IMG/VR virus record: IMGVR_UViG_3300023174_003074
Location: 1 to 30,815 of that record
DNA length: 30,815 nt
DNA from: a virus
Strand: one strand, 5' to 3'
Shown here: one piece after another, positions 5,711-26,494 of the stretch
How the letters are laid out: each line of letters opens with the position of its first letter
Numbering within the stretch: the stretch's first letter is position 1
The notes under the pieces: generated by a model
What the model saw: the letters and a program-made list of their open reading frames with translations, nothing else
The model's database searches: none
Told to the model about the DNA's origin: nothing
Position numbers and translations under genes: made by a program

Positions 5711-8700
5711 ATGTTAGAAGAAAATCTTAAAAAAATATATTATATACCAGTTCCTGTTCCTCCCACAAGTAAAACACAACAAGAGGGAGAACTTAACTTA
5801 TTTGATTTATTCACCAATCCAAATCCACAATCTCTTGTCGGACCAGATATTGGAGGAACAACTTTACCCCAAATTAAACAAAATACAATACAAGATCAAG
5901 AATTAGCATTAGATGATATAAGAACAAATACATTAAAGTCATTTATTTTTTCTTGTTCTGATGGTGATTGTCCAAGTGATTCAAATGGAGATGATCTTAA
6001 TTGTTGTTGGGCAAACAATACTTGTCAAGAAAACTATTGCTATAAAAATGACGCAGAATGTACTTGCAATAATCCGGATGGATCCTCTGGTGGAACTTGT
6101 AATGCGGATATAGATTGCTCAATTGGTTGTTTATGTAAACAATTTAAAACTCCGTGCACTGAATTTAGCGGTTGTATGTATCCAAAACGAGATTTAAAAC
6201 CCGGTTGGGGTAAATATGAATGTACTGATCCTCATGATGGGAGTGCTTTCTACCTATGTGATGCCCCATGTGGAAGAGCATCAGGATCATGTTCCGCATC
6301 ATTAGTGGTTTTAAATGATCCTGACAAAAAATATGGAATCAAAACATGCGATGTTGCGGGCAATTCATATCAATATGTTGAAACAATATATTGCCCAACT
6401 CTTAGAGATGAATATAAAAATTATTGGGCAACAAACTGTGGTGGCGGATTGAAATGGAAGACTGCAGTAGACCGCGATAACGGAATACAAAGGTGTGAAT
6501 GTAAAGATACAAGTTGTGTTGGTTATGATGCAACCGATTGTTGGGATTCGGGTAAAGATAATGAATCACTAATTATGAATATAATCGGTCTTTCACTTGC
6601 ATGTAGTCAACAACCAACTTCTCTTTGTGGTGACAGACAGATAGGTAAAATTGAAGATTGCGAGAATATTATATTTTATCGAGATGAACAAGTAAAAGAC
6701 TGTTCAGAGTTAACATGTGCTGATCTAGATGCTGGTTTGGGTAAATATTGTGTATTATCAAATTGTACTCAATGTTGTGGTACTTGCGGAACACCTTGTT
6801 CGGATGATCCTACTACATGTTGCAAAACATGTGGTTCTGAATGTAATACTGCAAATGATTGTACAAAATATTCACAATGTCTTGCAAAAACTGGAAATTA
6901 TGCGCCAGGTGGAACATGTGAAAGATGCCCATGTACCGATCCATGTGGTTCAAATTGTGAAACTTCAACAAAGTCTCAATATGATAATTGCATATTAAAT
7001 TGTCAAAATAGTTGTTGCTGTACTAATCCATGTGTAGGTGCACCAACAGATTATTGGACATGTATGGCATCTTCATTTGGTAGTAAGGGATGCTGTAATA
7101 AAAATTGTGATAGGGATTGTGGTGGTCTTATAAACTCTTGTAGTTCTGCAAATGCAAATTGCAAAAAGAAAATCAGCGAAGGTGGTTGTTGTAAATGTGC
7201 AGAAGATATTTGTGCAACATCTACAAAAAATGATTATGAAAATTGTTTATTAAATGTTGGCGCATGTGATGGTTGTTGTACAGATCCATGCATTGGTGCA
7301 CCAAGTAACTATTTTGATTGTATTGTATCACCATATGCTGCTAAGGGATGTTGTTCTCCTTTTAGTTGCTTGGATTGTGGTTCAAGTCCATGTACAGACT
7401 CCCATTCGCAATGTAATACATCTACAGATTCTGGTGGATGTTGTGTATGTAAGAATACTGCATGTAAATCAACAACAAATATAGAATATAATAATTGTAA
7501 GAAAAATGCAGATTGTATAGCAAGTGGTTGTTGTACAGATCCATGTATTGGTGCACCAAGTAACTATTTTGATTGTATTGTATCATCATATGCTGCTAAG
7601 GGATGCTGTTCCTTTAGTTGTTCTGATTGTGGTTCAAGTCCATGTACAGACTCCCATTCGCAATGTAATACATCAAAGGAATCTGGTGGATGTTGTGTAT
7701 GTAAGAATTCTACTTGTGCAACATCTACAAAAGATGATTATGAAAATAAATGTAAGAAAAATGCAGATTGTATAGCAAGTGGTTGTTGTACAGATCCATG
7801 TATTGGTGCACCAAGTAACTATTTTGATTGTATTGTATCACCATATCTCGCAAAAGGTTGCTGTTCCTTTAGTTGTTCTGATTGTGGTTCAAGTCCATGT
7901 ACAGACTCCCATTCGCAATGTAATACATCAAAGGAATCTGGTGGATGTTGTGTATGTAAAGATAGTGCATGTAAAACCAATACAGTTATAGATTATAATA
8001 CTTGTATAAACACAAAGAAATGTTCAGATAACAGTTGTTGTATAGATCCATGCATAATAAATGGCACTCTTGTATCAGACCTGATAACATCTATAACTCT
8101 ATATGATCAATGTGTTGCAAAAACAGGAATCTTTAGTGGATTAAAAGATAATACTTGCTGTGGATCGTTTAAATGTTCATATTGCGTAGATGCATGTACA
8201 AATTCAGATATAAGATGCAAAAATCCATCTGGTGGTTCTGATTGTTGTGAATGTAATAATACTGAATGTAAAACGAATACTGTGAGTGATTATGCAAATT
8301 GTTTAGAACAAAATAAACAAAATAAATGTTTATCGTGTTGTTCTAATCCGTGTACAGGAATACCAGAAATAACAACTGTAGAAGAATGGAGAGCATGTAA
8401 AGCATCGGAAACAGGGACTGTAAATAAATACACACCTTATACAAGTAAAGGATGTTCATGTGGAGAGTTCTCATGCACACTATGTAAACCATCTGCATGT
8501 TCAAACATGGATATATTATGTCAGGCAACAAATTGTTGTGTATGCAACAATATTGCATGTAAATCAACAACAAATACAGAATATAATAATTGTAAATTAA
8601 ATACTGCATGTCGTGATGCTGGTTGTTGTATAGATCCATGCATTGGTGCACCAAGTAACTACTTTGATTGTATAGTATCACCATATGCTGCTAAGGGATG

Positions 8701-10471
8701 CTGTTCCTTTAGTTGCTTAGATTGTGGTTCAAGTCCATGTAGTGATCCACATTCGCAATGCAATACATCAAAGGAATCTGGTGGTTGTTGTGTATGTAAG
8801 AATACTGCATGTAAATCAACAACAAATACAGAATATAATAATTGCAAATTAAATACTGAATGTCTTAATACTGGTTGCTGTATAGATCCATGTATTGGTG
8901 CTCCAAAAGACTTCAATGATTGTATTAGATCACCATATCTTGCAAAAGGTTGCTGTATACCACCAGTAGGACCATGTACAGAATGTCCATATTGTCAGGG
9001 TCAAGACGGACAAGCAGGAACATGTTCTACACTTGCAGAATATAATGCATGTTTGTCATCGGGAGTATGCACTTCAAATAATTGCTGTATTTATCAACAA
9101 ACCGATCCTTGTGATGGTTGTTCTGATGATTGTAATACATGCAGATCAAATGCAACATGTGTTGCAAAAGGATGCTGTAGATTTAATTGTTCACAAATGA
9201 CATGTCCAGATTCTAGTACTGTTACTGGATATAGAGCATGTATGAATAATAATTGTTGCAAGACAGAAGGATGTTGCACATATCCATGCACGGGATGCCC
9301 AAAGAATTATTCAGATTGTATAAAGAATACACAATGTAATCTTGCAGGTTGTTGTATATACGAACCACAACCATGTGATAGTTGCACATTCCCAACAAAT
9401 CAACAATGTTTACAAAGTGTATATTGTTCTTCAAATGGTTGTTGTGCAGAAGATCCATGTTTTGGTTGTTTGGATGGTAGTCCAAATTCATATTATAGAT
9501 GCATGACGAACAGTGATTGCAGAACAAATGGATGCTGTGGTGAAGCACCATGTACATTAAATAAATGTTTTACATCAACAAAACAAGAATATTTACAATG
9601 TTTAAACAATCCAGATTGTAATGATTCAGAATACCCATGCTGTGATAATCCATGTAAGACATGTTCAACTAATTATTTTGAATGTATGAGAAATGATGCA
9701 TGTGTAAGAGCAGGTTGCTGTGCTATAGCACCAACCTGTTTGGATTGTAAGACAGATCCTGCATATCCAAATGCATCCTGTACACACCCAGATTCAAGAT
9801 GTAGTAATTCTCCTGAAACTGGAGGATGTTGTAATTGTAAGTCTTCTAGATGTCAAACATCAACTAAATCAGAATATACAACATGTGGAAATGTAATCAA
9901 TAAATCATTCTGTAAAGATATTTGGGGAACAGGTATATCTTGTTGTAGCAATCCCTGCACAGGTTGTGCAACTAAACAAGGTCAATTTGGTCTTTGTATA
10001 ACTCAATCTGGTTGTGCAAATAAAGGATGCTGTACACAACCACCAGAAGATCCATGTGCTGGCTGTAAACAATCTAATTGTTCAAGTATTGCAGAATGTG
10101 CAAGAAATGCATGTTGTAAGGAAACACCAATATGTGAAAATTGCAATGCAACTTATGCTACATGTATAACTTCGCCAACATGTGTTGCAAATGGTTGTTG
10201 CCCACCAGATCCATGTGTCAGATGCAATAGAAATAAGACAGTTGAGGGATTTGCAGAATGTTCTGCAGATGCACGATGTGTAGCAAATAATTGCTGCAAC
10301 GATCCATGTGATCAATGTAAGCACATATATTATACAGAATGTTCAAGTGATGTTTATTGTAGTGCAAATAATTGTTGTCCACCACTACCTTGTCCAACAT
10401 GTCCAGAAAATTATGAAGAATGTATTTCAAATGAAATTTGTAGATTATATTGTTGCTGCGTGGAGACATAA
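5711..10471 (+). CDS. 1586-residue cysteine-rich tandem-repeat protein, function unknown
   Basis: The gene begins 10 bases after the giant fibre gene, without a recognisable Shine-Dalgarno, so it is probably translationally coupled. The first ~75 residues are ordinary and Pro/Asn/Gln-rich (MLEENLKKIYYIPVPVPP...), with no signal peptide or membrane helix. The rest is extremely rich in cysteine: in the repeat from 7280, 16 of 85 residues are Cys. A middle region has near-identical 85-residue repeats (see the repeat entries). The C-terminal ~450 residues are a string of short modules of the form PC-x2-C ... Y-x2-C-x5-C-x3-GCC, for example PCTGCPKNYSDC and PCKTCSTNYFEC. The paired CC and CxxC spacing suits disulfide knots or metal knuckles. 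No enzyme motif is visible. Position next to a fibre gene and sharing of the module with the 21438 gene suggest a virion surface protein. I do not recognise a named family. Confidence 0.9.
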   Translation: MLEENLKKIYYIPVPVPPTSKTQQEGELNLFDLFTNPNPQSLVGPDIGGTTLPQIKQNTIQDQELALDDIRTNTLKSFIFSCSDGDCPSDSNGDDLNCCWANNTCQENYCYKNDAECTCNNPDGSSGGTCNADIDCSIGCLCKQFKTPCTEFSGCMYPKRDLKPGWGKYECTDPHDGSAFYLCDAPCGRASGSCSASLVVLNDPDKKYGIKTCDVAGNSYQYVETIYCPTLRDEYKNYWATNCGGGLKWKTAVDRDNGIQRCECKDTSCVGYDATDCWDSGKDNESLIMNIIGLSLACSQQPTSLCGDRQIGKIEDCENIIFYRDEQVKDCSELTCADLDAGLGKYCVLSNCTQCCGTCGTPCSDDPTTCCKTCGSECNTANDCTKYSQCLAKTGNYAPGGTCERCPCTDPCGSNCETSTKSQYDNCILNCQNSCCCTNPCVGAPTDYWTCMASSFGSKGCCNKNCDRDCGGLINSCSSANANCKKKISEGGCCKCAEDICATSTKNDYENCLLNVGACDGCCTDPCIGAPSNYFDCIVSPYAAKGCCSPFSCLDCGSSPCTDSHSQCNTSTDSGGCCVCKNTACKSTTNIEYNNCKKNADCIASGCCTDPCIGAPSNYFDCIVSSYAAKGCCSFSCSDCGSSPCTDSHSQCNTSKESGGCCVCKNSTCATSTKDDYENKCKKNADCIASGCCTDPCIGAPSNYFDCIVSPYLAKGCCSFSCSDCGSSPCTDSHSQCNTSKESGGCCVCKDSACKTNTVIDYNTCINTKKCSDNSCCIDPCIINGTLVSDLITSITLYDQCVAKTGIFSGLKDNTCCGSFKCSYCVDACTNSDIRCKNPSGGSDCCECNNTECKTNTVSDYANCLEQNKQNKCLSCCSNPCTGIPEITTVEEWRACKASETGTVNKYTPYTSKGCSCGEFSCTLCKPSACSNMDILCQATNCCVCNNIACKSTTNTEYNNCKLNTACRDAGCCIDPCIGAPSNYFDCIVSPYAAKGCCSFSCLDCGSSPCSDPHSQCNTSKESGGCCVCKNTACKSTTNTEYNNCKLNTECLNTGCCIDPCIGAPKDFNDCIRSPYLAKGCCIPPVGPCTECPYCQGQDGQAGTCSTLAEYNACLSSGVCTSNNCCIYQQTDPCDGCSDDCNTCRSNATCVAKGCCRFNCSQMTCPDSSTVTGYRACMNNNCCKTEGCCTYPCTGCPKNYSDCIKNTQCNLAGCCIYEPQPCDSCTFPTNQQCLQSVYCSSNGCCAEDPCFGCLDGSPNSYYRCMTNSDCRTNGCCGEAPCTLNKCFTSTKQEYLQCLNNPDCNDSEYPCCDNPCKTCSTNYFECMRNDACVRAGCCAIAPTCLDCKTDPAYPNASCTHPDSRCSNSPETGGCCNCKSSRCQTSTKSEYTTCGNVINKSFCKDIWGTGISCCSNPCTGCATKQGQFGLCITQSGCANKGCCTQPPEDPCAGCKQSNCSSIAECARNACCKETPICENCNATYATCITSPTCVANGCCPPDPCVRCNRNKTVEGFAECSADARCVANNCCNDPCDQCKHIYYTECSSDVYCSANNCCPPLPCPTCPENYEECISNEICRLYCCCVET
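7280..8041 (+). repeat. Three tandem ~85-codon repeats inside the cysteine-rich gene
   Basis: Units start at 7280, 7535 and 7790, with periods of exactly 255, 255 and then 252 bases. Each opens with ACAGATCCATG(C/T)ATTGG and encodes TDPCIGAPSNYFDCIVS, followed by GCC, SCxDCGSSPC, TDSHSQCNTS and GGCCVCK. Long stretches are identical at the DNA level, so duplication is recent or maintained by recombination. The later part of each unit is more variable. All copies remain in frame. Confidence 0.92.
8630..8956 (+). repeat. Further copies of the 85-codon cysteine repeat
   Basis: One full copy begins at 8630 (ATAGATCCATGCATTGG, encoding IDPCIGAPSNYFDC) and runs 252 bases. A partial copy begins at 8882 (IDPCIGAPKDFNDC) and changes after GCC into another module. 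Two much more diverged relatives fill 8042-8629 between these and the first tandem block, so the array has both young and old copies. Confidence 0.85.
8990..10468 (+). repeat. Array of short (~25-35 residue) seven-cysteine modules
   Basis: From about 8990 to the end of the gene the protein is a head-to-tail series of short modules with the pattern PC-x2-C-x(3-6)-Y-x2-C-x5-C-x3-GCC. Examples begin PCTGCPKNYSDC, PCKTCSTNYFEC, PCDQCKHIYYTEC and PCPTCPENYEEC. The spacing between cysteines is conserved while the other residues vary widely, which points to structural selection on the cysteines. Confidence 0.85.
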
Positions 10472-10473
10472 AT

Positions 10474-10944
10474 ATGAATGAGGATAATATTATGAAAAAA
10501 TCTGTTGATGAAAAATTAGAAGAAGCATTCAATATGCCAACCACTGTCGGTTCAATAATCGAGAGTCAAACAGAGTTGCCAATAATAACTACATCAAAAG
10601 ATACAGATTTAAATAGAGATTATCTCACAGTTAGATCAAATCTATATGATATTATTGAAAAGGGCACTAAAGCAATTGATGGTATTCTTCATGTTGCTTC
10701 AGAGGGTGATTCTCCCAGAGCATATGAAGTAGTATCTCAACTCATAAAAAGTGTAGCAGATGCAAATAAAGATTTATTACAACTACACAAACAATTAAAA
10801 GAAATCAAACAAGATACACCAGCATCTACACAATCTGCACAAAATATTACAAATCAATCAATATTTGTTGGTAGTACAACAGAACTGCAAAAATTATTAA
10901 AAGGTAAAATGCAGGAAATAAAACAAATAGAATCTGATGTATGA
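10474..10944 (+). CDS. gp16: Small terminase subunit (gp16-like)
   Basis: A 156-residue protein from ATG at 10474. This start is preferred over the upstream in-frame TTG at 10450 because GGAG at 10462-10465 lies 8 bases ahead. It also avoids overlap with the cysteine-rich gene, which ends at 10471. The protein is mostly helical and charged (NEDNIMKKSVDEKLEEAF, YEVVSQLIKSVADANKDLLQ), of the usual gp16 size (about 160 residues). The small terminase recognises phage DNA and regulates the motor during headful packaging. The best evidence is size plus its place directly before gp17, overlapping it by 4 bases (ATGA). Sequence alone is only moderately diagnostic. Confidence 0.85.
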   Translation: MNEDNIMKKSVDEKLEEAFNMPTTVGSIIESQTELPIITTSKDTDLNRDYLTVRSNLYDIIEKGTKAIDGILHVASEGDSPRAYEVVSQLIKSVADANKDLLQLHKQLKEIKQDTPASTQSAQNITNQSIFVGSTTELQKLLKGKMQEIKQIESDV

Positions 10945-12614
10945 TAGGTGATAAAAACTCATATCTTGGTAACCCAAATCTTAAAAGAACAAATGTTCCA
11001 GTAAACTTCACTCAAGAGCAAGTTGAGGAATATTTAAAGTGTTCTGAAGATCCCGTTTATTTTATGAAGAATTACATAAAGATTGTAAATCTTGATAAAG
11101 GTCTTGTAAATTTTGAATTATATCCATTTCAAGAAAAATTAGTAAATCTAATACGAGACAATCGTTTCGTGATTGCAAAGATGCCTCGTCAGTGTGGTAA
11201 GTCAACTACCATCATTGCAGATATTCTACACCATGCACTGTTTAATCCAAATCAGACCATAGCAATTCTTGCAAATAAAGAAAAACTTGCAAAGGGGCAT
11301 ATGGATCGTTTAAAGACTGCTTATGAAAACTTGCCAAAATGGTTACAACAAGGTGTCAAGGAATGGAACAAACATTCTATAGAATTGGAAAATGGTTCAA
11401 AAGTATTAGCATCTGCTACTTCTGCATCTGCAATCCGTGGTGGTTCATTTAATTATATTTTATTGGACGAGTTCGCACATGTCCCCGAAAATATAGCAAA
11501 TGATTTTTATAGTTCAGTATATCCAACTATTACTTCTGGTAAAACTACAAAAATGGTTATTATTTCTACTCCATATGGTTTAAATCTTTTTTATAAATTG
11601 TGGATAGATGCTATTGAAGAAAGAAATAGTTTTAAATATATTGATGTTCACTGGTCGGATGTTCCTGGTAGAGATCAGACTTGGTATGAAAGAGAAATTC
11701 AAAATTTAGGTGAAGATAAATTTAGAACAGAACACGAATGTGATTTTATTGGTAGCACTAATACTTTAATATCTCCAGACAAATTGAGAACTATGGTTTA
11801 TAAGACACCAATCCACACAACTGATGATGGTCTTAAAGTATACGAAAAACCAGTTATTGATTCAAAAACTCCTGCTAATAATCATAGTTATGTACTTACC
11901 GTAGACACCGCCAGAGGGACGGGGAACGACTACAATGCATTTGTAGTGATAGATATCACCAAGACCCCATATAAGATTGTAGCGACATTTAAAAACAATG
12001 AAATGTCACCATTGGTATACCCAAATATCATATATCCTATAGCAAAGCAATATAATGATGCTTACATATTAGTTGAAATAAACGATATAGGTGGTCAGGT
12101 TGCGGATCTACTTCACAATGAAATGGAATATGAAAATATATTAATGTCATCTATTAGAGGTAGAAAGGGACAGACTCTGGATGGAGGTTTCGCCGCTGGC
12201 AATCAGGTTCAATTAGGACTCAGAACAACTAAAGCGGTTAAGAGACTTGGATGTTCAATTTTAAAATCTTTAATAGAATCTAATAAATTATTAATTGTAG
12301 ATTATTCAATTATTCAAGAATTAGTTTCCTTTATTTCAAAAAATAATAGTTTTGAAGCGGATTCGGGTCACAATGATGATTTGGTTATGTGTATGGTACT
12401 ATTTGGTTGGTTAACTACCCAGAACTATTTTAAAGATTTAACTAATATGGATATCAGAAAAACTGTATTTGATGAAAAAATAAAACAATTAGAGGATGAA
12501 ATGACACCATTTGGTGTATTAGATGATGGTATTATGGATGCCAACCAAGAAATAGATGCTTCTGGAACAGTCTGGACAGAAGATTTAAATAGAAATAATG
12601 ATTTTTATACATAA
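10941..12614 (+). CDS. gp17: Large terminase subunit: packaging ATPase and nuclease (gp17-like)
   Basis: 557 residues. This is the DNA-packaging motor that docks on the portal. The N-terminal ATPase has Walker A PRQCGKST at about residues 82-89, Walker B LLDEFA at about 174-179 with catalytic Glu177, and coupling motif STPYG at about 209-213. The C-terminal RNase H-like nuclease has its acidic residues in VDTARGTGNDY (Asp322), ILVEIND (Glu379) and SGHNDDLVM (Asp479/480), the same order as in T4 gp17. The length is a little shorter than T4 gp17 (610), the deficit mostly at the N-terminus. The start codon overlaps the gp16 stop as ATGA, indicating translational coupling; there is no separate Shine-Dalgarno close by. 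Confidence 0.97.
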   Translation: MIGDKNSYLGNPNLKRTNVPVNFTQEQVEEYLKCSEDPVYFMKNYIKIVNLDKGLVNFELYPFQEKLVNLIRDNRFVIAKMPRQCGKSTTIIADILHHALFNPNQTIAILANKEKLAKGHMDRLKTAYENLPKWLQQGVKEWNKHSIELENGSKVLASATSASAIRGGSFNYILLDEFAHVPENIANDFYSSVYPTITSGKTTKMVIISTPYGLNLFYKLWIDAIEERNSFKYIDVHWSDVPGRDQTWYEREIQNLGEDKFRTEHECDFIGSTNTLISPDKLRTMVYKTPIHTTDDGLKVYEKPVIDSKTPANNHSYVLTVDTARGTGNDYNAFVVIDITKTPYKIVATFKNNEMSPLVYPNIIYPIAKQYNDAYILVEINDIGGQVADLLHNEMEYENILMSSIRGRKGQTLDGGFAAGNQVQLGLRTTKAVKRLGCSILKSLIESNKLLIVDYSIIQELVSFISKNNSFEADSGHNDDLVMCMVLFGWLTTQNYFKDLTNMDIRKTVFDEKIKQLEDEMTPFGVLDDGIMDANQEIDASGTVWTEDLNRNNDFYT

Positions 12615-15292: not shown

Positions 15293-16918
15293 ATGGCATT
15301 TGAGTTATTTGGATTTACATTTGGCAAAAAAGACACAATAAACAAACCCATTGATTCATTTGTCCCAAAGGCAGTTGACGATGGAGCAAGTATTGTTGAA
15401 GGTGGTGGCTTTCAAGGTCAATATATTGATTTAGATGGTACACTCAAAGGTGATGTAGAATTAGTAAGAAAATACAGAGAAATGTCTCTGCATTCCGAAG
15501 TAGATCAAGCAATTGATGACATTGTTAATGACGCTATTACAGAGGATGCAACGGGTAAAACTATACAACTGGATTTAGATAAAGTTAATATACCAGATGA
15601 AATCAAAGATATAATTTATGAAGAATTTGATATCATTCTCCATTTATTAAATTTTAATAAAAAAGGAATAGAAATTTTTAGAAAATGGTATGTTGATGGT
15701 AGAATATACTATCACCATATTCTACACGATGATCCAACACAGGGTCTTAAGGAAGTTAGACTGATCGATCCGTTATTGATTAAAAAAATTAGAGAAGTAA
15801 AGAAAGACAGTTCATTATCAAATATTCCATTAATTAGAGATGTAAGAGAATATTATGTCTTCTCTAATTATGAAAAATTAAGTCCATACGATACAAAAGG
15901 ATTAAGAATATCTGTAGATAGTATCAACTATGTACATTCTGGTTTATATGATTATTCCAGTAAGAGAATAGTTGGATATCTACACAAGGCAATTAAACCA
16001 CTCAATCAACTTAGAATGGTTGAAGATGCTACAGTCATTTATAGATGGGCTAGAGCACCAGAGAGAAGAGTTTTCTATATTGATGTTGGTTCTCTACCAA
16101 AGAATAAAGCAGAGCAATACATGCGCGACCAGATGAATAGGTTTAGAAATAAACTTGTTTATGATGCTAACACCGGAGAAATCCGTGATGATAGAAAGCA
16201 TATGAGTATGTTGGAAGATTACTGGTTACCACGAAGAGAAGGCGGTAAGGGTACAGAAATTTCAACTCTACCCGGTGGTCAGAATTTAGGAGAGATGGAA
16301 GATGTTCTATACTTCCAGAAGAAGTTATTAAAATCACTTAACATTCCAATAAGTAGAATCGAATCTGAAAATGGATTCAATATGGGCAGAGCATCTGAAA
16401 TTACAAGAGATGAACTTAAATTTGCAAAATTTGTAAATAGACTTCGTTTAAAATTTAGTGAACTATTTTTAAACTTCCTAAGAGTTCAATTATTAGCAAA
16501 ACAAGTAATGAGTGAGGAAGACTGGAAAAATATTCAACAAAATATAATTTTTAAATATGCAACAGATTCTTATTTTTCAGAATCTAAACAAGCAGAAATA
16601 CTCAAAGATAGAATTTCAATTCTTAGAGATGCTGCGGATTATTCTGGTAAGTTCTATTCGGATAGATGGCTGAGAAAGAATCTATTAAGACAAACTGATC
16701 AAGATATTTCACAAATTGATGCTGAAATTGGTGAAGAGCAACAAATACAATTAGAAAAACAACAGCAAGCATCGATGGCTGCCGGTTTATCTCCACAGGG
16801 TCAAGAATTGGGTCAATCCGACATGTCGGGAGGACAATCTGGAGGTGGTATAAATACGGTAGCACCACCACAAGATCCAACAGGAGGTAAAACTTTCGAT
16901 GCCAGCAGCCTATTATGA
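15293..16918 (+). CDS. gp20: Portal vertex protein (gp20-like)
   Basis: 541 residues, near T4 gp20 (524). It forms the dodecameric ring through which DNA enters the head and which nucleates prohead assembly. Characteristic portal stretches are VELVRKYREMSLHSEVDQAI, DDIVNDAITEDATGKTIQL, RAPERRVFYIDVGSLPKNKA and MLEDYWLPRREGGKGTEIST, followed by LPGGQNLGEMEDVLYFQKKL. The last ~55 residues are Gln/Gly-rich and low-complexity. AAGGA at 15280-15284 precedes the ATG by 8 bases. The 3' end contains a late promoter box (16849) and overlaps the next gene by 20 bases, so the downstream cassette is wired into the end of this gene. Confidence 0.96.
   Translation: MAFELFGFTFGKKDTINKPIDSFVPKAVDDGASIVEGGGFQGQYIDLDGTLKGDVELVRKYREMSLHSEVDQAIDDIVNDAITEDATGKTIQLDLDKVNIPDEIKDIIYEEFDIILHLLNFNKKGIEIFRKWYVDGRIYYHHILHDDPTQGLKEVRLIDPLLIKKIREVKKDSSLSNIPLIRDVREYYVFSNYEKLSPYDTKGLRISVDSINYVHSGLYDYSSKRIVGYLHKAIKPLNQLRMVEDATVIYRWARAPERRVFYIDVGSLPKNKAEQYMRDQMNRFRNKLVYDANTGEIRDDRKHMSMLEDYWLPRREGGKGTEISTLPGGQNLGEMEDVLYFQKKLLKSLNIPISRIESENGFNMGRASEITRDELKFAKFVNRLRLKFSELFLNFLRVQLLAKQVMSEEDWKNIQQNIIFKYATDSYFSESKQAEILKDRISILRDAADYSGKFYSDRWLRKNLLRQTDQDISQIDAEIGEEQQIQLEKQQQASMAAGLSPQGQELGQSDMSGGQSGGGINTVAPPQDPTGGKTFDASSLL
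16849..16856 (+). promoter_or_regulatory. T4-type late promoter box inside the 3' end of gp20
   Basis: An exact TATAAATA lies within portal codons (Gly-Ile-Asn-Thr). Transcription would start near 16862, leaving a leader of about 37 bases with AGGAGGT at 16882-16888 ahead of the ATG at 16899. Position just before the accessory cassette makes chance less likely. Confidence 0.65.
16882..16888 (+). promoter_or_regulatory. Strong ribosome binding site deciding the 16899 start
   Basis: AGGAGGT lies 10 bases ahead of the ATG at 16899, inside the gp20 coding sequence. It supports a start that overlaps the portal gene by 20 bases. The next ATG, at 16915, is out of frame. Confidence 0.75.
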
Positions 16919-17486
16919 TATAACGATTGAAGAAGGTTCTAGTTATAAACTAAAATTAAAATTTAAAGATAGTACAAACACTGTTGTAAATTTAAATAGT
17001 ACTGATTCTAGAGCACCATCAATAACAACAATACCAGTTGGATTTGAATCGGAATTAACATCCAGCGATACAACCAAAGCAGGTAAATGTGGTGTATTTG
17101 CAAAAATGCAAGTTAGAAATTCTGTAAATGCCACTGTTGTAGAATTGAATCCTATCAATCAAGCAGATTCTGGACCTGTATCTTTATATGGTGAAAGTTA
17201 TAATATATTAGGTTCAAATGCAATTGATATAAGTTTATCTAATGGATTACCAGTTGCAGGTTCCCCTTTGCCAACACCAAATATAAAACTATCATTATCA
17301 TCTTTTATAACAAGAAGAATAAATTATGGTAATTATCTTTATGATTTAGAACTTATATATTTTAAATTACCATCAGGAACAACAGTTCCAAATTATACAA
17401 ATATATCAAATGGTCTTGATAGAAACACTGTAGTTTTTAGAATTTTACAAGGAAGATTTGTAATAACACCAGCAATCACAAGATAA
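16899..17486 (+). CDS. Small beta-rich structural protein (YDITIEEG family), probably virion-associated
   Basis: 195 residues, overlapping gp20 by 20 bases. The N-terminus AAYYDITIEEGSSYKLKLKF and the C-terminus NYLYDLELIY ... VVFRILQGRFVITP resemble an immunoglobulin-like or BppU-like beta-sandwich domain of tail and baseplate proteins of marine T4-like phages, as I recall that pattern. The middle (VELNPINQADSGPVSLYG...) looks like inserted loops. No cysteine richness, signal peptide or catalytic motif is seen. It leads the accessory cassette behind its own late promoter and strong Shine-Dalgarno, so it may be the piece that anchors the cassette proteins to the particle (inference). Confidence 0.8.
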   Translation: MPAAYYDITIEEGSSYKLKLKFKDSTNTVVNLNSTDSRAPSITTIPVGFESELTSSDTTKAGKCGVFAKMQVRNSVNATVVELNPINQADSGPVSLYGESYNILGSNAIDISLSNGLPVAGSPLPTPNIKLSLSSFITRRINYGNYLYDLELIYFKLPSGTTVPNYTNISNGLDRNTVVFRILQGRFVITPAITR

Positions 17487-17487
17487 T

Positions 17488-20400
17488 ATGGCAGTAGATT
17501 TATCAACATTTTATATAACAATAGAAGCCACTACTCCTATATTTAAATCTAGAGTAGATGGCAAAGATAGTGTTATAATTTCCACAACAATACCAAAAGA
17601 AGATGTTATAAAAACACAAGCACATAGAGATCCTGCTTATCAAGCAAGTTTTAATAGATGCACATCTTTAGGTTGTTCTGATTATACTCAGGGGTTTAAT
17701 TATATTCCAAGTTGCGGAGAATGTGAAAAACCATTATTCCCACCATTTTCCGAAAGACCTCTAATTACATGTCTTGCTGATACTCTATTAAAAAGAATTA
17801 ATTACACTCTTGATGGATTATTGGATAATAATAGATCTGCTACTTATGGTGGTGCAATGCCCATAGTAGATAATAGAGTAGAAACTAATAGAACAGATTA
17901 TTATTACTCTGATGCATATATTGAATATAAATTATATAACGGCACATCTTGGTCACCAACAAGTACATCTGGATGGAAAAATTTTCCAGGCTCAGGTGGT
18001 AATGTAAGTTTTAATAAATTTTATTCAATGACTGGTTATTGGTTTGGTTATGAACCATGCCATGGAGCAAATAATCTATATCAATGTGCAGTAAGTTGCG
18101 ATTCTGGTGAAGTTGTTGGTTGCTGGCAAGTTGGAGATCTTCAAAGAGAATTAGGGGATAATCCATTAAACACATATGGTGAAGTTAAATTTGGATCTGT
18201 TTGGGGATTTGTTGGACTAGAGAGTTCATATCCACAAACAATCAGATATTACCAAATATATGATCCTGCACAAATAGTTGCTGCAGGTGTTATATTAACA
18301 AAAGAGTTAATTGTTCCTCTAAATCCAACTATTTCCGAAAATGGATATATGACTTCAGCAGGAACAGGACAATTATCTGAAAATACAGGATATGGTGTAT
18401 GCAAACCAAAAAGAACATCATTAGATTTTGGTGATGCAGATTATCTAAGAGAAACAAATTGCTTATCCGGTGGAACAAAAAGAAATACAGATGAACGATG
18501 TTCAACATGTGAAATAAATTCTTATAAACCAACAAGAGCAATTGATAAGATGTTAAAATTTGCAGATTCAACTGCTCCTGATTATACTTCAGTGGAATTG
18601 AAAGATATACCAAAAGAACAATTTAAGAAATTGAAGTTTTCAGTTGTTGGTGATGTCGTAGGAAAAATTTTAACAGATGGAACAAATTGTTTTTTCCCCA
18701 AATCAACTATAGATACGACTGTTGGTAAATTTTTATTAGGTGGTCCTGTTGATGCAATAGTTGTACAGGGTTATAAACAAGCAACATTTACAGATTTAGG
18801 ACTTAAAAATGGATTTTATTATGATGATTGTATGTCTTGTTTGGAAGAAAAGGCAAATGCAATCTATAGTGTGATCTCAACTGCAAGAACAGAAGCAGCC
18901 AGAATTAATCCATTTTATCAAAAATGCGGTGTGGATATTGCAGGAAAAACTGTAGAACAAAGAGTAGCATCAGGACATCTTCCTTATAATATAGATTGTA
19001 GTTGTGTTCGTTGTGGTGATATTTACATAACTGGTGCACCTATATGGAAGAGTACACCTGCAGGCGGTTATTCGGTTTCTCCGGGAAGTGCCTCTGGTTC
19101 TTGGTCAATAACTGAGTCTTGGTTTACTGGTGCAGAAAATGCAAGTTTATATTTTGCTAATTTACCAAAGAAGAGAAAAACATTAGCAGTTGTTGATAAT
19201 AAACAAGTGTATATTGATGATCCATTATGCGTTCCATCATCAAATCCTTTACCAGAAGAAAATCCAGATTATCCATACGCAAGTGATAGAAGTCCAGAAT
19301 GTTGGGATTCAAACGATTCTCAATATAAGAGAATTTGGTGGTTCTTTGATAAATCAAAGAAATTTACAGATTTAGGATTTAGATCATTAGCACCAATGAG
19401 TGCATATTGGAATTGGCAAACAGTAGGATCCACAACAACAAAACTATGGTATCAGCACAGATACAATTCTAAACATCTTTGGTCTGGTTGTGGTGGATTA
19501 AAGGATAATGATAGAGCAGTGGTTCCTTTTTGTATCACTTGTTATGAAAAAATGCAATCTAAAGTAGATTCATTAAATAATATAGTAGTACCTTCAACCC
19601 TTAGTGCTGTAACTGGTATCAAACTAGCAGCAGAAAATGAATTCACTGATGCTGAAATTTCCTATAAAGGATTACCTTCAGTATATGCTGTTACAGATCC
19701 TAATTATGCATACGGTCTACCAAGATCATATCTCTACTACAGTAGAAGAGCATCAACTTCATATTACCCATGTGATAATACAAATACTGCACCATTGTTA
19801 GGAACATATAAATGCTCATGTGGTACTTTACCTTGTATGGATGAGATAATGTTAACTGCTGTACCTATTAAGTACAGAATAAATGTTTCGACTGGTAGCA
19901 GAGACATTGAAGGATTAAAAACATGTTCAACATTATCTCCCGGAACAGAAGCATTCCCAGGAGTATATGAATTACACTTAGAAGGAACAGAAAAGATATC
20001 AGATAGTCCAACATCTGATAAATTATATCCATTAGTCGGACCAAATAAATATAAAGATGGTGTTCCATTAAGAAATTACAATGTAGGATTAAATTGGGAT
20101 TCTTATAAGAACAGCAGATTACAACCAGAAAATTCTGGAGAAATTGGTGCCGCTGGTGCATACAAATATCAATATGCATCATCGTTTACAAATAATGGTT
20201 ATTTTGCAAATTTCTATGTTGATAATCACGATCCACTATATTTCTGGAATCGTCCAGTGTCCTTCTTGAATTCTGGTGTACTGATTAAGAGTCATGCAGT
20301 AAGTGAAGTAAATGAAACATTATTCAGATTAGCAAGATTAAGAGACATATATCATATAAACTGTTCAAAATCTTCAAACAATAAATGGGGCGAATATGGT

Positions 20401-20544
20401 TATGTTGATCATTTGATATCTGGTACACCAAAACCATATTTAAATTCAACCCACTTCTCATCACTCACAGATGGTGTTACTACTACACCATCAATGCCAC
20501 ATCTTCGCGGACCAGTAATTCCACAACAAGTTGGTCAAAACTGA
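17488..20544 (+). CDS. Large unrecognised protein with paired cysteines, probable structural
   Basis: 1018 residues, starting one base after the stop of the previous gene, without a clear Shine-Dalgarno (coupled translation likely). The start MAVDLSTFYITIEATTPIFK is beta-like. Scattered CxxC, CxC and CC-like pairs appear (SCGECEKPLFPPF, DCMSCLEEKA, IDCSCVRCGDIYITGAP, CSCGTLPC). Many Tyr, Trp, Ser, Asn and Gly residues suggest an extracellular beta-rich protein. The end is Pro-rich (PHLRGPVIPQQVGQN). It has no signal peptide, helix bundle or known enzyme motif. Shared operon and cysteine pairs link it with the neighbours to 26450. I cannot name a family. Confidence 0.85.
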   Translation: MAVDLSTFYITIEATTPIFKSRVDGKDSVIISTTIPKEDVIKTQAHRDPAYQASFNRCTSLGCSDYTQGFNYIPSCGECEKPLFPPFSERPLITCLADTLLKRINYTLDGLLDNNRSATYGGAMPIVDNRVETNRTDYYYSDAYIEYKLYNGTSWSPTSTSGWKNFPGSGGNVSFNKFYSMTGYWFGYEPCHGANNLYQCAVSCDSGEVVGCWQVGDLQRELGDNPLNTYGEVKFGSVWGFVGLESSYPQTIRYYQIYDPAQIVAAGVILTKELIVPLNPTISENGYMTSAGTGQLSENTGYGVCKPKRTSLDFGDADYLRETNCLSGGTKRNTDERCSTCEINSYKPTRAIDKMLKFADSTAPDYTSVELKDIPKEQFKKLKFSVVGDVVGKILTDGTNCFFPKSTIDTTVGKFLLGGPVDAIVVQGYKQATFTDLGLKNGFYYDDCMSCLEEKANAIYSVISTARTEAARINPFYQKCGVDIAGKTVEQRVASGHLPYNIDCSCVRCGDIYITGAPIWKSTPAGGYSVSPGSASGSWSITESWFTGAENASLYFANLPKKRKTLAVVDNKQVYIDDPLCVPSSNPLPEENPDYPYASDRSPECWDSNDSQYKRIWWFFDKSKKFTDLGFRSLAPMSAYWNWQTVGSTTTKLWYQHRYNSKHLWSGCGGLKDNDRAVVPFCITCYEKMQSKVDSLNNIVVPSTLSAVTGIKLAAENEFTDAEISYKGLPSVYAVTDPNYAYGLPRSYLYYSRRASTSYYPCDNTNTAPLLGTYKCSCGTLPCMDEIMLTAVPIKYRINVSTGSRDIEGLKTCSTLSPGTEAFPGVYELHLEGTEKISDSPTSDKLYPLVGPNKYKDGVPLRNYNVGLNWDSYKNSRLQPENSGEIGAAGAYKYQYASSFTNNGYFANFYVDNHDPLYFWNRPVSFLNSGVLIKSHAVSEVNETLFRLARLRDIYHINCSKSSNNKWGEYGYVDHLISGTPKPYLNSTHFSSLTDGVTTTPSMPHLRGPVIPQQVGQN

Positions 20545-20553
20545 GAATAATAA

Positions 20554-21441
20554 ATGACTACATCAGACCCATCAAAAAATTATTGTTCCTGTATAGAATT
20601 TGGTGAAAAAGGTTCCAAAGGAAAGGCTGTAGTATATACTGTAAATGCAGGACAAAAATGTTCTTCTGTTTTATCATATCAAGCACATATAAATTCATGG
20701 TGTGGGTTATATAGAAGATGGAAAGATTATCTTGGCGAATCTGTAAAAACAGATTTAGATTTATTTAAAATGATGGCATTTGATCCAGATACATATAATC
20801 AAAAAATATATCCGTGGGGCGATTATGGATGGTTTGGCCCATTTAGAACAGAAGAAGAAGCATTACAAGCAGCAAATACACAAATAAAAGAAAATTATTT
20901 ATATTGGAATGTTGATTGGCAAACTAGAATAAAAATTAAAGACTCATCTGGTAAAAAGGTTTACGAAACAAGAACAATTCCCGGTATAGTTGGTGGATTT
21001 AATTTTCATGGTCATACTCTTAATAGAGATGGTGATTTTTGTAGTGCTATAACATATTCTTCTGATAAAGTTGTTAGAAGAATGAAAAATAAAGAAGGTA
21101 TTGTGATAGATCTTTGGATATGGGAAGTTGATGGTGATAACAATCTAGGAACATGTAGTTGGAAAAATAAATCAATGAAGGCAACTAAAATGAATTGTTA
21201 TTCATTTATGTCTCTTGATGAAAGTGATTACTTCTGTGGCAATAATGATTACGATCAAACTATAAACAATAATAATAATGGTTGTTGGTGTTGTGGAAAT
21301 TATTCAAATTTAACAACAAAATTAGATCTTATAACAAATAAAAATAATATAAACATTGGACCATGTGGTAATCCATATCAATCAGATAAAAGAAATGGGA
21401 GATTTGGGAAGTATGATACTCGTCCTGGGGTGGTGAGATGA
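20554..21441 (+). CDS. Unrecognised 295-residue protein of the accessory cassette
   Basis: The gene follows the previous stop by 9 bases and overlaps the next start by 4 (ATGA), so it is in one operon. It opens with Cys pairs (KNYCSCIEFGEKGSKGKAVV), then an aromatic-rich middle (YPWGDYGWFGPFRTEEEALQ, NYLYWNVDWQTRIKIKDSSG), a His-rich turn (GFNFHGHTLNRDGDFCSA), and a Cys/Asn-rich end with NNNNNGCWCCGN. The EEALQAANTQIKENYLYW segment could be a small helix as in lectin-like or SPOR-like folds, but this is weak. No signal peptide is present. Function unknown; the cassette context suggests a virion protein. Confidence 0.82.
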   Translation: MTTSDPSKNYCSCIEFGEKGSKGKAVVYTVNAGQKCSSVLSYQAHINSWCGLYRRWKDYLGESVKTDLDLFKMMAFDPDTYNQKIYPWGDYGWFGPFRTEEEALQAANTQIKENYLYWNVDWQTRIKIKDSSGKKVYETRTIPGIVGGFNFHGHTLNRDGDFCSAITYSSDKVVRRMKNKEGIVIDLWIWEVDGDNNLGTCSWKNKSMKATKMNCYSFMSLDESDYFCGNNDYDQTINNNNNGCWCCGNYSNLTTKLDLITNKNNINIGPCGNPYQSDKRNGRFGKYDTRPGVVR

Positions 21442-24029
21442 GTTATAATATACCACCAAACAAAGATAACAATACCGATGCACAGTGCCCCGGTGGAACA
21501 TCAGTTAACTGTGGTGCACCTTCTACAATAGATAATATAAATTTAACGAGAGCCGAAGGTGGTACTCCTGGATTTATAACTATAACACGACATATGTGTG
21601 TCGGTGACTCAATAGAAAGTGGTCCAGAATTTACAAAACCCTCATATGGTTCTGTATTAGGTAAAACAGTAATACGAGATGCTTCTCCAAGCACACCAAG
21701 AAGTCAATATCCTTATGCATGTGGATATTTTGATTATGCAAGAAATGTAGTTGGTGATTCAACTTATGGTAATCCATATTCTTCTCAACAACCAACTCCT
21801 TTATGGAATTGTAGCAGTGGTGCATGTAGTCAATGGTTTGATTTTTTCTGCCATATTTTCTTTGGTTGTTTTAAAGATAATGATCCAACAAATGCAGGAT
21901 CAAGATCGGATATGGGAATGACTACTGAAGTTAGTTATTTAACAAATCCAGATCAACCAAAAAGAAAAACTTTATTAGATGTAAATACTGCACTTTCATC
22001 AAATAGATATACTGTAAAATTTCAAAATATAACACCAATAATTAAAGGTGCTGGTAGAACATATCGTTATGAAACTACTCCAACTGGTGCATTTACTGGT
22101 GATGTTAAGATACATTCCATAATACGACACCCAAAAATGAATAGAGAAGAACTCAGATTCTTTGGTGTAAAGGAAGAAGATTTTGATAAAGTGATGGTTG
22201 CTGCATCTGGAACCGATGTAAAAATAAATTATAGTTGTTTACATTCAGAAGCAAATAGCGTATCAATTGCATTTTTTAAATGGGATTTATCAACAATTGT
22301 CAATCACGATGGACGAGTAACTGTAAAGGGTGAAGATAGAGATCTCTATAAAATTATATCTCAAAAAATAAATAATGGAGAAATGCACTCGACCGACAAA
22401 GTTATGGAATATGTATTGTTGTCTTCATGGTTTAGAAATGGTGCAAATAGAGGAAATACTGGAGCAAGTGTAAATGCAACAGTAACAATACCATTAGAAC
22501 CATTTTGGGATGATAATACTATTATGGTTGTCTTTATAGGAAATAGAGTTGCTGGAAGAGGAAAATATAGCGACAGTAGATTATCATTAACTAAAAATAT
22601 AGTAGATGGTAATTGGAGTGGTGCTGTAAAAGCTGATGGTTCATTGGGTACACGAGGAACACCTTTTACCACAACAGGATTGCCTTGGAGCAATTCTGGA
22701 GGAGGAGATGGTAAACACTGTGGTTGTAAATTACAAATTACAGTTCCGGAATATGAGGAAGTTGGTGTTGGATGTAGTCAAACAAGAAATATTGACTGGT
22801 TATTATATTCAGATACAACACAATTAAGAAAAGTAAAACCATTATCGGATGGTAAAATTGATCAAATGTGGAACTCCCCATCTCAGGGTAGTCACATAAT
22901 GAAAATTGTACCAAATAATTATTATGAAAATGAATGTACTTGGAGAGTATCAAAAGCAATTAGAGATAACAAAGATATTTCACAAAATTCTGTTGTATAC
23001 GCAGCAAATTGTCTCACTAGTGTTGGTGATCCTTATATAAACGAACATGGATTTTTATCAAAAGAAAGTCCAATTGGTATTCATTACTTAGAAAAATGCA
23101 ATTCATATTCAATGAATATAAGTCCTAATGCTGAAATATCAAATCAAAGTCGTTGCTGTTCTCCAAAAATAAGTGGTCCATTTCTACTAGATAAATTACC
23201 ATATGGTGAAGATGAATTAATAAAGAAAAATGATAGTCTTCATGACAGTCCAGATTTATCAAGTAATTATAGACCAAACTTAAATTATTTTAATAAAAAT
23301 TTTGCGTATCATTTAGAAAATAGAATGGATTGTGAATGTAGTGGTAGTGATTGTGCAAAAGCAAAATGCTATGAATGCCCAAGTTTTACCAAAACTGAAT
23401 ACGAAGCATGTAAAATAGCAGATGAATGCAAAGATAAACAAGATTGTTGCAAAGATCCATGTTCAAGTTGTCCAAACACTTATGGATTATGTATTGCTAC
23501 TGGTGAATGTGAACAAAGAGGTTGTTGTTCTTTATGTGAAGACTGTGTATCGGATACTATTGCTGAATATAATGATTGTTTAGCAAATACTGGAACTTGG
23601 GCAACAAGAGGATGTAAGAGTAGAAATTGTTGTTCCATACAATGTGATGGTTGTCCACAAAATATTATAGACTGTATTGCAGTTGATATATGCAAAAATT
23701 CAGATTGTTGTAGATTTCTTTGTGATGTTGAATGTGATATTGTAAACAGAGGAACTATTGAAGAACCAATTTTTGAAAATAAAACATTAAGTGATTATTG
23801 GAATTGTATTCAAAACAAAGGTAAATATTCAACCTATCCAAAAAGCGAATGTAGTAACGGATGTTGTTGTCAAAACCCATGTGATAAATATAGAAGTGGA
23901 GTAAAAACAGTCATAAGAAGCGATGCCGGTGTATCATATGAATCACCATATTTAAGAGCAGACTGTGAAAATGATCCACGATGCGTTGAGGAAGAATGTG
24001 TTGGTTATTTACCAGAAATCCAGGGATAA
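21438..24029 (+). CDS. 863-residue cassette protein with C-terminal cysteine modules; paralogue of the 25575 gene
   Basis: The start overlaps the previous stop as ATGA, with a modest GGTGAG ahead. The N-terminus (CGAPSTIDN, EGGTPGFITITRHMCV) and a later block (SHIMKIVPNNYYENECTWRV, KCNSYSMNISPNAE, CCSPKISGPFLLD, NFAYHLENRMDCEC) align with the whole of the 291-residue protein at 25575. Between them this protein has about 400 extra residues, including a beta-sandwich-like part (VNATVTIPLEPFWDDNTIMV). The C-terminal ~230 residues carry cysteine modules such as PCSSCPNTYGLC and QCDGCPQNIIDC, each ending in CC, of the same type as in the giant cysteine-rich protein at 5711. Function unknown; probably a virion surface component. 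Confidence 0.87.
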   Translation: MSYNIPPNKDNNTDAQCPGGTSVNCGAPSTIDNINLTRAEGGTPGFITITRHMCVGDSIESGPEFTKPSYGSVLGKTVIRDASPSTPRSQYPYACGYFDYARNVVGDSTYGNPYSSQQPTPLWNCSSGACSQWFDFFCHIFFGCFKDNDPTNAGSRSDMGMTTEVSYLTNPDQPKRKTLLDVNTALSSNRYTVKFQNITPIIKGAGRTYRYETTPTGAFTGDVKIHSIIRHPKMNREELRFFGVKEEDFDKVMVAASGTDVKINYSCLHSEANSVSIAFFKWDLSTIVNHDGRVTVKGEDRDLYKIISQKINNGEMHSTDKVMEYVLLSSWFRNGANRGNTGASVNATVTIPLEPFWDDNTIMVVFIGNRVAGRGKYSDSRLSLTKNIVDGNWSGAVKADGSLGTRGTPFTTTGLPWSNSGGGDGKHCGCKLQITVPEYEEVGVGCSQTRNIDWLLYSDTTQLRKVKPLSDGKIDQMWNSPSQGSHIMKIVPNNYYENECTWRVSKAIRDNKDISQNSVVYAANCLTSVGDPYINEHGFLSKESPIGIHYLEKCNSYSMNISPNAEISNQSRCCSPKISGPFLLDKLPYGEDELIKKNDSLHDSPDLSSNYRPNLNYFNKNFAYHLENRMDCECSGSDCAKAKCYECPSFTKTEYEACKIADECKDKQDCCKDPCSSCPNTYGLCIATGECEQRGCCSLCEDCVSDTIAEYNDCLANTGTWATRGCKSRNCCSIQCDGCPQNIIDCIAVDICKNSDCCRFLCDVECDIVNRGTIEEPIFENKTLSDYWNCIQNKGKYSTYPKSECSNGCCCQNPCDKYRSGVKTVIRSDAGVSYESPYLRADCENDPRCVEEECVGYLPEIQG
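23335..23905 (+). repeat. Cysteine-module array at the C-terminus of the 863-residue protein
   Basis: At least three short modules follow one another (PCSSCPNTYGLC...GCC, CEDCVSDTIAEYNDC...CC, QCDGCPQNIIDC...CC) and a longer one ends near 23880. The cysteine spacing matches the 8990-10468 array. The DNA is diverged, so this is old homology or transfer rather than a fresh copy. Confidence 0.8.
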
Positions 24030-24032
24030 AAA

Positions 24033-25562
24033 ATGCCATTTAGAGATTATAGTCAATCAAAAAACAAAATATGTCCTAAGTGTAATACGGGTTCACCTTG
24101 GCCTTTAATAATATGGGATAATGTTTTAAATTTAGGGTATAAACATAGAATAAGATGTGGATTTAAAGCAAATACATGTGCGGGTATCAGGAGTGGTACT
24201 AACCCATCACAATCTCTTTTTATTGTTGGTACATTAGTAACTGATGATGATTTATTATCTCTTGGATTTCCAACAACATATAAAACACCAAGCACAGGTG
24301 GTCCTACTGGATGTATTGATTCTGTCTGTGGATGTGAGTATAAAGTTGGTGATGTATGGAAATATACTCCCAATTCCGGAAAGTTAACACTATCTTATAG
24401 TGGAGTATGTGACGGTAGTATGGGTATAAACATGGAAGTTTTTGACTATAATTCCGCTACTGAGCAATGGTCAGTGTCAAGGTGTGCTTCATCAACTGGA
24501 TTTGGTTATAATGAAAGTTCAAAAGGACAAAATGGTGTAAGTGGTAGTATCACTTTAGAAGACGGAACATTATATTCATATTTATATAATACAAAAAATA
24601 TATTAGTAGCAGTTTTTGATGACAATGGTGGTTGTGGAAATGGTGGATGTAATTATTTAACTATAACTTTAAATTATAACTCCAAATCAAAAAACTACTA
24701 TACAGATTTAGATAAAGATTGTGGTGGTAGATGTAATAATAAAAAGAAGGGATCATGCAGAACAACAGGAGGAGGTGGAATTCTTGGTGGATTTGCTTGT
24801 GAAACTTGCTTAAAGGCGTTAGAAAAATATAATAGCGATTTGGGGGGACGCGGAGGAATAATATCATCTCAAACTGATGATAATCCTGCATTTATTAATA
24901 CATATGATGAATGTTTATCAACATTACCAACACAATGTGGTTCACTATGTTGTAAATTTTTCTTTCCATGCGGTACTACAGTTACTCCCACTGGAGGTCC
25001 TACTGATAGTGTTTATTGTTTGAGAAGTGGTAGCACAACACCTTGTATGAATCCAAACGATACACCCGCAAATAGATATAATAACTGTGATCTATTAGCT
25101 GATTGTAAGAATAGAGGATGTTGTTTTGATTTTTGTGGAGATATAGGATTACCAGCTGGTCAAAATTTTACAGATATTATTTCATGGGATCAGTGTCCGG
25201 GTAATTCTATTAAGGGTGGAACAACTAGTAACAATTATAGTTTTGCAAGAACAAATCCAGAACCTGATTTTGTTAGTAATGGTTGTAGTTGTGGTTCTAA
25301 AAATTTTAATACTTGGTGTTTTAGAAATCCCAAAACAGATCAAACTATAAGCTGGTCAACTGCTAGTGCTGCTGAAAAAACTGCATGGAGAGGAATAAAG
25401 TATCAAAATCTATATAATGGTAAAAACTGGAATAGCACTACTAAGACGGAAACTCTATGTGTTGATGGTAGTCCATGTGAATATCCATTATTGCCTGAAG
25501 GTGATTCTTTTTATGATAAATTAGTATTTCAAACTTGTATTGATGTTGGTATATTATCGTAA
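24033..25562 (+). CDS. Unrecognised 509-residue cysteine-containing protein
   Basis: The gene begins 3 bases after the previous stop, with AGGGA at 24022-24026 as a weak ribosome site. The N-terminus has a zinc-knuckle-like CPKC pair (KNKICPKCNTGSPWPLIIWD). Residues ~115-230 look like a beta-sandwich (YTPNSGKLTLSYSGVCDG, GSITLEDGTLYSYLYN, NILVAVFDDNGGC, NYLTITLNYN) similar in style to extracellular carbohydrate-binding domains. The second half alternates Cys clusters and Gly/Asn-rich loops, including CDLLADCKNRGCC, a degenerate form of the shared cysteine module. There is no signal peptide or catalytic motif. Probable virion adhesion protein by context; identity unknown. Confidence 0.83.
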   Translation: MPFRDYSQSKNKICPKCNTGSPWPLIIWDNVLNLGYKHRIRCGFKANTCAGIRSGTNPSQSLFIVGTLVTDDDLLSLGFPTTYKTPSTGGPTGCIDSVCGCEYKVGDVWKYTPNSGKLTLSYSGVCDGSMGINMEVFDYNSATEQWSVSRCASSTGFGYNESSKGQNGVSGSITLEDGTLYSYLYNTKNILVAVFDDNGGCGNGGCNYLTITLNYNSKSKNYYTDLDKDCGGRCNNKKKGSCRTTGGGGILGGFACETCLKALEKYNSDLGGRGGIISSQTDDNPAFINTYDECLSTLPTQCGSLCCKFFFPCGTTVTPTGGPTDSVYCLRSGSTTPCMNPNDTPANRYNNCDLLADCKNRGCCFDFCGDIGLPAGQNFTDIISWDQCPGNSIKGGTTSNNYSFARTNPEPDFVSNGCSCGSKNFNTWCFRNPKTDQTISWSTASAAEKTAWRGIKYQNLYNGKNWNSTTKTETLCVDGSPCEYPLLPEGDSFYDKLVFQTCIDVGILS

Positions 25563-25574
25563 TAAAAAACAATA

Positions 25575-26450: not shown

Positions 26451-26468
26451 TGTTAAATACATTGCATA

Positions 26469-26476
26469 TATAAATA
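26469..26476 (+). promoter_or_regulatory. T4-type late promoter box for the gp67-gp21 unit
   Basis: An exact TATAAATA in the 44-base gap after the accessory cassette. Transcription would begin near 26482, on the Shine-Dalgarno AAGGA (26482-26486) itself, 13 bases before the ATG at 26495. Confidence 0.8.
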
Positions 26477-26494
26477 AAGAAAAGGATTCAAATT

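Follow-up and report, generated by a model that had tools for sequence, protein, structure and literature searches.

What kind of protein is encoded directly upstream of the terminase genes of an uncultivated T4-like phage, where a single giant open reading frame is densely packed with cysteine codons? The DNA analysed here (the window) is the whole of one IMG/VR virus record, 30,815 bases long, and belongs to a T4-like phage. An earlier note, made by reading the same DNA, had drawn attention to the gene. We propose that its product would be a fibre or adhesin of the virion surface, made late and stapled by disulfides once lysis has occurred; judged from sequence, we regard this as about an even call.

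Results

A cysteine-module protein beside the terminase genes

With isolated phages the large terminase subunit (TerL) shares at most about 57% identity (57% with Methylophilales phage Melnitz, 56% with Synechococcus phages), and with many uncultivated contigs 88-93%. The terminase genes do adjoin the giant gene, as noted earlier; 3' of it follow TerS, TerL, sheath, tube, portal, seven further genes, prohead protease, scaffold and major head protein (Table 1). The late-promoter core ATAAATA is not enriched in the window (17 occurrences observed, 20.5 expected). The gene on the 5' side encodes one large protein in which an N-terminal part without assignment is joined to a heparinase II/III-like lyase domain and to RCC1 repeats; this protein is a candidate phage-borne depolymerase or adhesin.

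Cysteine makes up 17.0% of the giant protein and 19.2% of residues 341-1586, in agreement with the earlier estimate of a 1586-residue protein with about one residue in five in the repeats. This is far from chance, since the neighbouring core virion proteins contain only 0-1.7% (TerS 0, portal 0, TerL 0.9, gp23 0.6). The cysteine-free N-terminal segment is a possible anchor. Hydropathy revealed neither a signal peptide nor a membrane helix. The basic block of the repeat region, delimited by cutting at each CC, is a module of ~30 residues (mostly about 25-40) present in about 40 copies, with the canonical form C1-xx-C2 ... [YF]xx-C3-x5-C4-x3-[GN]-C5-C6. Three modules (a, b and c) form a super-unit of 84-99 residues, of which there are seven full copies (U0-U6) and a partial one (U7).

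Table 1. Coordinates of the features discussed, in window positions.
Feature	Position	Strand	Remarks
Upstream gene, cut by contig edge	1-5700	+	Heparinase II/III-like C-terminal domain (PF07940) and RCC1 repeats
Giant cysteine-module protein	5711-10471	+	1586 aa, 269 Cys; ATG start, uninterrupted ORF
N-terminal segment, residues 1-75	5711-5935	+	Cys-free
Irregular Cys-containing region, residues 76-340	5936-6730	+	11% Cys, without clear repeats
Super-unit U0	6932-7192	+	Three modules, a-b-c
Super-units U1, U2, U3	7193-7951	+	Adjacent 252/252/255-bp repeats; 80-92% DNA identity
Super-units U4, U5	7952-8539	+	Divergent; 51-60% DNA identity to U0-U3
Super-unit U6 and partial U7	8540-8956	+	U6 80-87% DNA identity to U1-U3
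C-terminal run, residues 1083-1586	8957-10468	+	Short, mostly six-Cys modules; best-conserved part, about 51-74% to G001
TerS (gp16)	10474-10944	+	PHROG 445, E 5e-41; longer TTG-start ORF from 10450
TerL (gp17)	10941-12614	+	
Gene between gp20 and gp21	21438-24029	+	Five Cys modules at C-terminus (about 23331-24026)
Neighbouring gene	24033-25562	+	One Cys module, RYNNCDLLADCKNRGCC; 6.9% Cys

A diverged tandem array

TRF detected a single array at 7270-8006 (period 255, 2.9 copies, 88% matches). A codon alignment resolves adjacent units of 84, 84 and 85 codons (7193-7444, 7445-7696 and 7697-7951); in this register the unit sizes are 252, 252 and 255 bases, and not 255/255/252 as first reported. 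The array of 85-codon units is real, but to call them near-identical was too strong: U1-U3 share 80-92% of their DNA and 72-87% of their protein sequence when compared with each other, and a fourth similar copy (U6, 8540-8791) is set apart from them by two divergent units. Assembly error, which the earlier note had kept in mind as a source of the repeats, is unlikely, to judge from the scattered substitutions and one-codon indel by which the copies differ and from a homologue at the same place in a second contig. The copy number in the contig is uncertain, because assembly could have collapsed copies.

A homologue in a second uncultivated phage

That homologue lies at about 60880-65950 on the minus strand of a 74-kb uncultivated contig (IMGVR_UViG_3300045125_000039, hereafter G001). 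The N-terminal part of the upstream gene, the giant gene, TerS, TerL, sheath, tube, portal, the block of cysteine-bearing genes, gp21, gp22 and gp23 follow one another there in the same order; the upstream gene keeps its N-terminus and has another C-terminal part. Since the G001 contig is broken by frameshifts, only open pieces were compared. Many of the frameshifts interrupt ordinary late genes, much as if long reads had been assembled without correction, and make ORF-based annotation misleading.

The match covers most of the giant from about residue 369, with the same modules in collinear order at about 35-74% identity: about 35% in the super-units, 52% in residues 1073-1460, 64% in 1462-1560 and 74% in 1561-1583. 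The N-terminal 340 residues show faint similarity, residues 76-340 being collinear and poorly conserved (CCWxNNxC...YC). The super-units of G001 differ from those of the window, and TRF found no near-identical array among them, although indels in the contig could hide one. On this evidence the recent super-unit duplications appear to belong to the lineage of the window. The expected variation between relatives finds support in G001, the only homologue found, which differs in repeat content. No near-identical relative carrying the giant was found by searches outside which records very near the window possibly lie.

Searches and predicted fold

The suggestion that this is no standard T4-like component held: neither Pfam, PHROG and NCBIfam nor INPHARED (tblastn with the low-complexity filter on) nor the PDB gave a match, and a peptide-pattern search of IMG/VR with the whole giant was also negative. 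A cysteine pattern of the PC/GCC type, proposed earlier as a route to relatives, did lead to one. With the DNA pattern C-x5-C-x3-GCC-x2-PC, run against viral and bacterial/archaeal genome collections, G001 was the sole clearly real match among the matches listed; the others inspected were apparent chance frames or low-complexity stretches. The pattern PC-x2-C-x6-C-x5-C-x4-CC gave no further giant among the matches listed and retrieved a contig (L390) with an ORF matching that of L422 (see below). A profile search with a single-module alignment recovered G001 again. In the part of the literature covered, no T4-like phage was described as having a cysteine-repeat virion protein.

Pfam, PHROG and NCBIfam identified no fibre, collagen, tropism or sugar-binding domain in the giant. 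We therefore describe the protein as working like an adhesin or fibre, and not as a member of a fibre family. The kinship to eukaryotic cysteine-repeat surface proteins that the earlier note had suspected did not emerge from Pfam or the PDB, neither of them a broad eukaryotic database. The module has no significant sequence match in the PDB, and the near-misses, TRIAP1 (E 0.065, the best) and Mrp10 (E 0.25), were judged to be chance. No significant sequence-profile or fold match to the WAP, granulin, knottin or CHCH families was obtained with Pfam, the PDB and Foldseek.

Modelling of the repeats, proposed as a check, gave a confident result for two units: AlphaFold returned a mean pLDDT of 91 for U2+U3 with 13 aligned repeats, and short helices surround C3 and C4. 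The pTM of 0.59 is no firm guide to whether the units form a rod or a globule. Foldseek, run at E up to 10, matched this model to nothing in the PDB or BFVD. The model of the C-terminal modules was poor (pLDDT 66) and again had no Foldseek match. The models suggest a new fold for the module, with the caveat that such small cysteine-rich folds are hard for Foldseek.

The module in other late genes

The same six-cysteine module, with the same joint variation of C2 and C4 (see below), recurs in the gene at 21438 (g21438). Its product differs from the giant in that about five modules end an unrelated domain of ~600 aa, and the gene lies in the gp20-gp21 interval and not in the gp15-gp16 slot. Orthologues in G001 and in two further contigs, L421 (IMGVR_UViG_3300010885_017593) and L422 (IMGVR_UViG_3300009155_000619), also have these modules at the C-terminus; with the window, four phages carry this module-ended second late gene. 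Five of the seven genes between portal and prohead protease encode proteins with 3.0-6.9% cysteine. The module family is probably larger than the viral and bacterial/archaeal genome collections searched here show.

Several observations concern the surrounding genes. The stretch from portal (gp20) to prohead protease (gp21), 16899-26764, holds seven genes, several of them cysteine-bearing and most without PHROG matches; those at 21438-24029 and 25575-26450 are paralogous. The block is kept in G001, L421 and L422 and partly in L014, and its place is taken in L015, L020 and L032 by a single cysteine-rich gene resembling g17488. Two other T4-like contigs encode unrelated-looking cysteine-rich proteins, one with a VC...DxxCC...WDxxC motif (L058:16354-18579) and one with Pro/Cys-rich CPPCxGC repeats (L059:11006-12643). 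A second tail-tube-like gene (PHROG 45) lies directly 3' of the major head gene at 30208-30738, and is found also in G001 and L421.

A slot for interchangeable large genes

In the contig L018 the slot is bordered directly upstream by gp13 (adaptor), gp14 (head closure) and gp15 (sheath stabiliser), and directly downstream by TerS. In phages with 88-93% identical TerL it is occupied by unrelated large proteins with little cysteine, 529 to at least 3174 aa long; L002 (TerL 93%), for one, has a 1650-aa protein in the giant's place. The giant is absent from all of these TerL-matched loci that have sequence upstream of TerS, and segments 5' of it in G001 match the slot proteins of L002 and L018. 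Its slot, flanked by gp13-gp15 on one side and the terminase genes on the other, is hypervariable, as expected for an adhesin or fibre gene of T4-like phages.

The slot proteins L002:4578-9527, L018:3555-9527 and L055:1-9522 share exchangeable segments (for example, residues 3-694 of the first match residues 1316-1987 of the second) and so form a mosaic of large genes on the 5' side of TerS. Phage Melnitz has no gene comparable to the giant at this place; it carries a gene with an F5/8 type C domain between TerS and TerL (L299:12930-14963), another binding-type insertion in the terminase cassette.

In aquatic T4-like phages (pelagimyophages, cyanomyophages) a hypervariable cluster for host recognition adjoins the neck genes, lying between VrlC and gp14 (PMC7029224). 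This cluster, the interchangeable large genes of the slot and the lyase/RCC1 neighbour together favour a surface, host-contact role. The earlier note had left open an adhesin, a whisker or a shield; unrelated large genes in one slot of phages with about 90% identical TerL favour adhesion or host recognition.

A decoration or shield, which would coat the head or tail and make it more durable (against proteases, for example) without itself binding the host, is an unlikely but serious alternative. The occurrence of the same modules in a gene between gp20 and gp21, beside the head genes, would fit such a coat, as would the extreme disulfide content, which suits protection, and the failure to find a sugar-binding domain. 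A general protective coat would, however, be expected to be kept, whereas the giant is patchy among the TerL-matched loci, and close relatives fill its slot with interchangeable large genes. We consider it improbable that the protein is a secreted or lysis-released factor acting outside the cell after lysis and no part of the virion. Disulfides would form on release, and disulfide-knit repeats resemble secreted eukaryotic modules in style; but the gene sits in the virion cassette, the same modules are fused C-terminally to another protein of that cassette, and we know of no precedent for a lysis-released factor of this kind in T4-like phages.

Cysteines change in pairs

Among 69 modules, 48 contain six cysteines, 10 contain four and 5 an odd number. 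The count is even in 49 of the 52 non-redundant modules, a parity that is no proof alone, since homologous modules inherit six cysteines. Of the modules with the YxxC3 anchor and a simple layout, 37 have both C2 and C4, 12 have neither, and 1 has only one of the pair. Joint changes occur at three orthologous positions. In the b module of U0, C2 and C4 are absent in the window (CTNPCVGAPTDYWTCMASSFGSKGCC) and present in G001 (VDSCATLEPLCVNTYDYWLCEEDSICMQFGCC). The second module of g21438 has both in the window, L421 and L422 and neither in G001 (VNPCVGAPLDYVECVAADGGSYDRKGCC), and its last module has both in the window and neither in L421; in L422 this last module lacks C4 alone and has an extra CC. 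Such joint gain and loss is what a C2-C4 disulfide predicts and is characteristic of disulfide-rich repeats. We attach no formal probability to it, the family being small and its modules non-independent.

The pattern supports disulfides over metal binding, and of the two means of stiffening suggested earlier it favours the former and disfavours the latter. With 19% cysteine, CxxC and CC motifs and no signal peptide to take it out of the reducing cytoplasm, the giant could conceivably act in the infected cell as a metallothionein-like sink or a zinc-knuckle chain. We think this very improbable: metal clusters do not require C2 and C4 to change together, there are only 7 histidines in 1586 residues, Pfam gives no match to either family, the residues between the cysteines are conserved (YxxC, GCC) and are modelled with well-defined short helices, and the gene sits among virion genes. 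That the repeat or the ORF is an artefact of assembly or translation, a natural worry with tandem repeats in a metagenomic contig, is scarcely credible and for the gene itself already refuted, given 1586 open codons, diverged units, the homologue in the same place of another contig and modules in other genes.

Discussion

The reading we prefer, a disulfide-stapled surface fibre or adhesin, implies the following course. Aquatic T4-like phages would exchange the gene by way of the host-recognition slot that separates gp15 from gp16. Having no signal peptide, the protein would be synthesised inside the reducing cytoplasm, its thiols free, and become oxidised once lysis had occurred. It would join the particle by one end; because the C-terminus is the most conserved end, anchor or tip could be either end. 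On release, three disulfides per module (two in 'b' modules) would form, and the product would be a stalk resistant to proteases, which either carries the host-binding surface or is that surface itself. Duplication of super-units and recombination would change its length. The sulfhydryl oxidase family PF04777 was not found in five related, incomplete records. Rather more tentatively, the giant may represent a new class of phage virion appendage: a chain of some 40 disulfide-stapled mini-domains of new fold, made reduced, locked by oxidation on lysis and tuned in length by recombination.

The giant would extend the known range of phage surface structures by an element built from disulfides and, if it is an appendage, would be the bacterial-virus counterpart of eukaryotic cysteine-repeat surface proteins. 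It poses the question of when and how such a protein becomes oxidised; a further question is the reduced-sulfur cost of its cysteine load to the host. The compact module might also serve as a stable repeat scaffold.

Virion proteins of tailed phages arise in a reducing cytoplasm and usually contain little cysteine. The eukaryotic WAP, knottin-type and CHCH modules have a spacing style, C...CxxxxxC...CC, similar to that of the giant's module, and are set apart from it by the lack of a Pfam match, a best PDB sequence hit of E 0.065 (TRIAP1) and the absence of Foldseek matches at E up to 10. The locus itself is of a known kind; the module, cysteine use on this scale and the sharing between two late genes had no match in the sources searched. 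The cluster of aquatic T4-like phages resembles it in placing hypervariable large genes beside the neck genes, and is reported to contain tail fibres, domains of the YadA, collagen and concanavalin A kinds and tropism determinants in the structural operon, together with glycosyltransferases; the word 'cysteine' appears nowhere in the paper, and the position is VrlC-gp14 where that of the window is gp15-gp16 (PMC7029224). In Agrobacterium phage Milano a disulfide network runs through sheath, tube, baseplate and receptor-binding proteins (PMC10811340). The likeness is that of a contractile-phage virion hardened by disulfides, receptor-binding proteins included, to which the giant would be a parallel if it is oxidised as we suppose. 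Milano, however, uses a few cysteines per standard protein, mostly in bonds between subunits, whereas the giant has hundreds, which would be bonded mostly within its modules.
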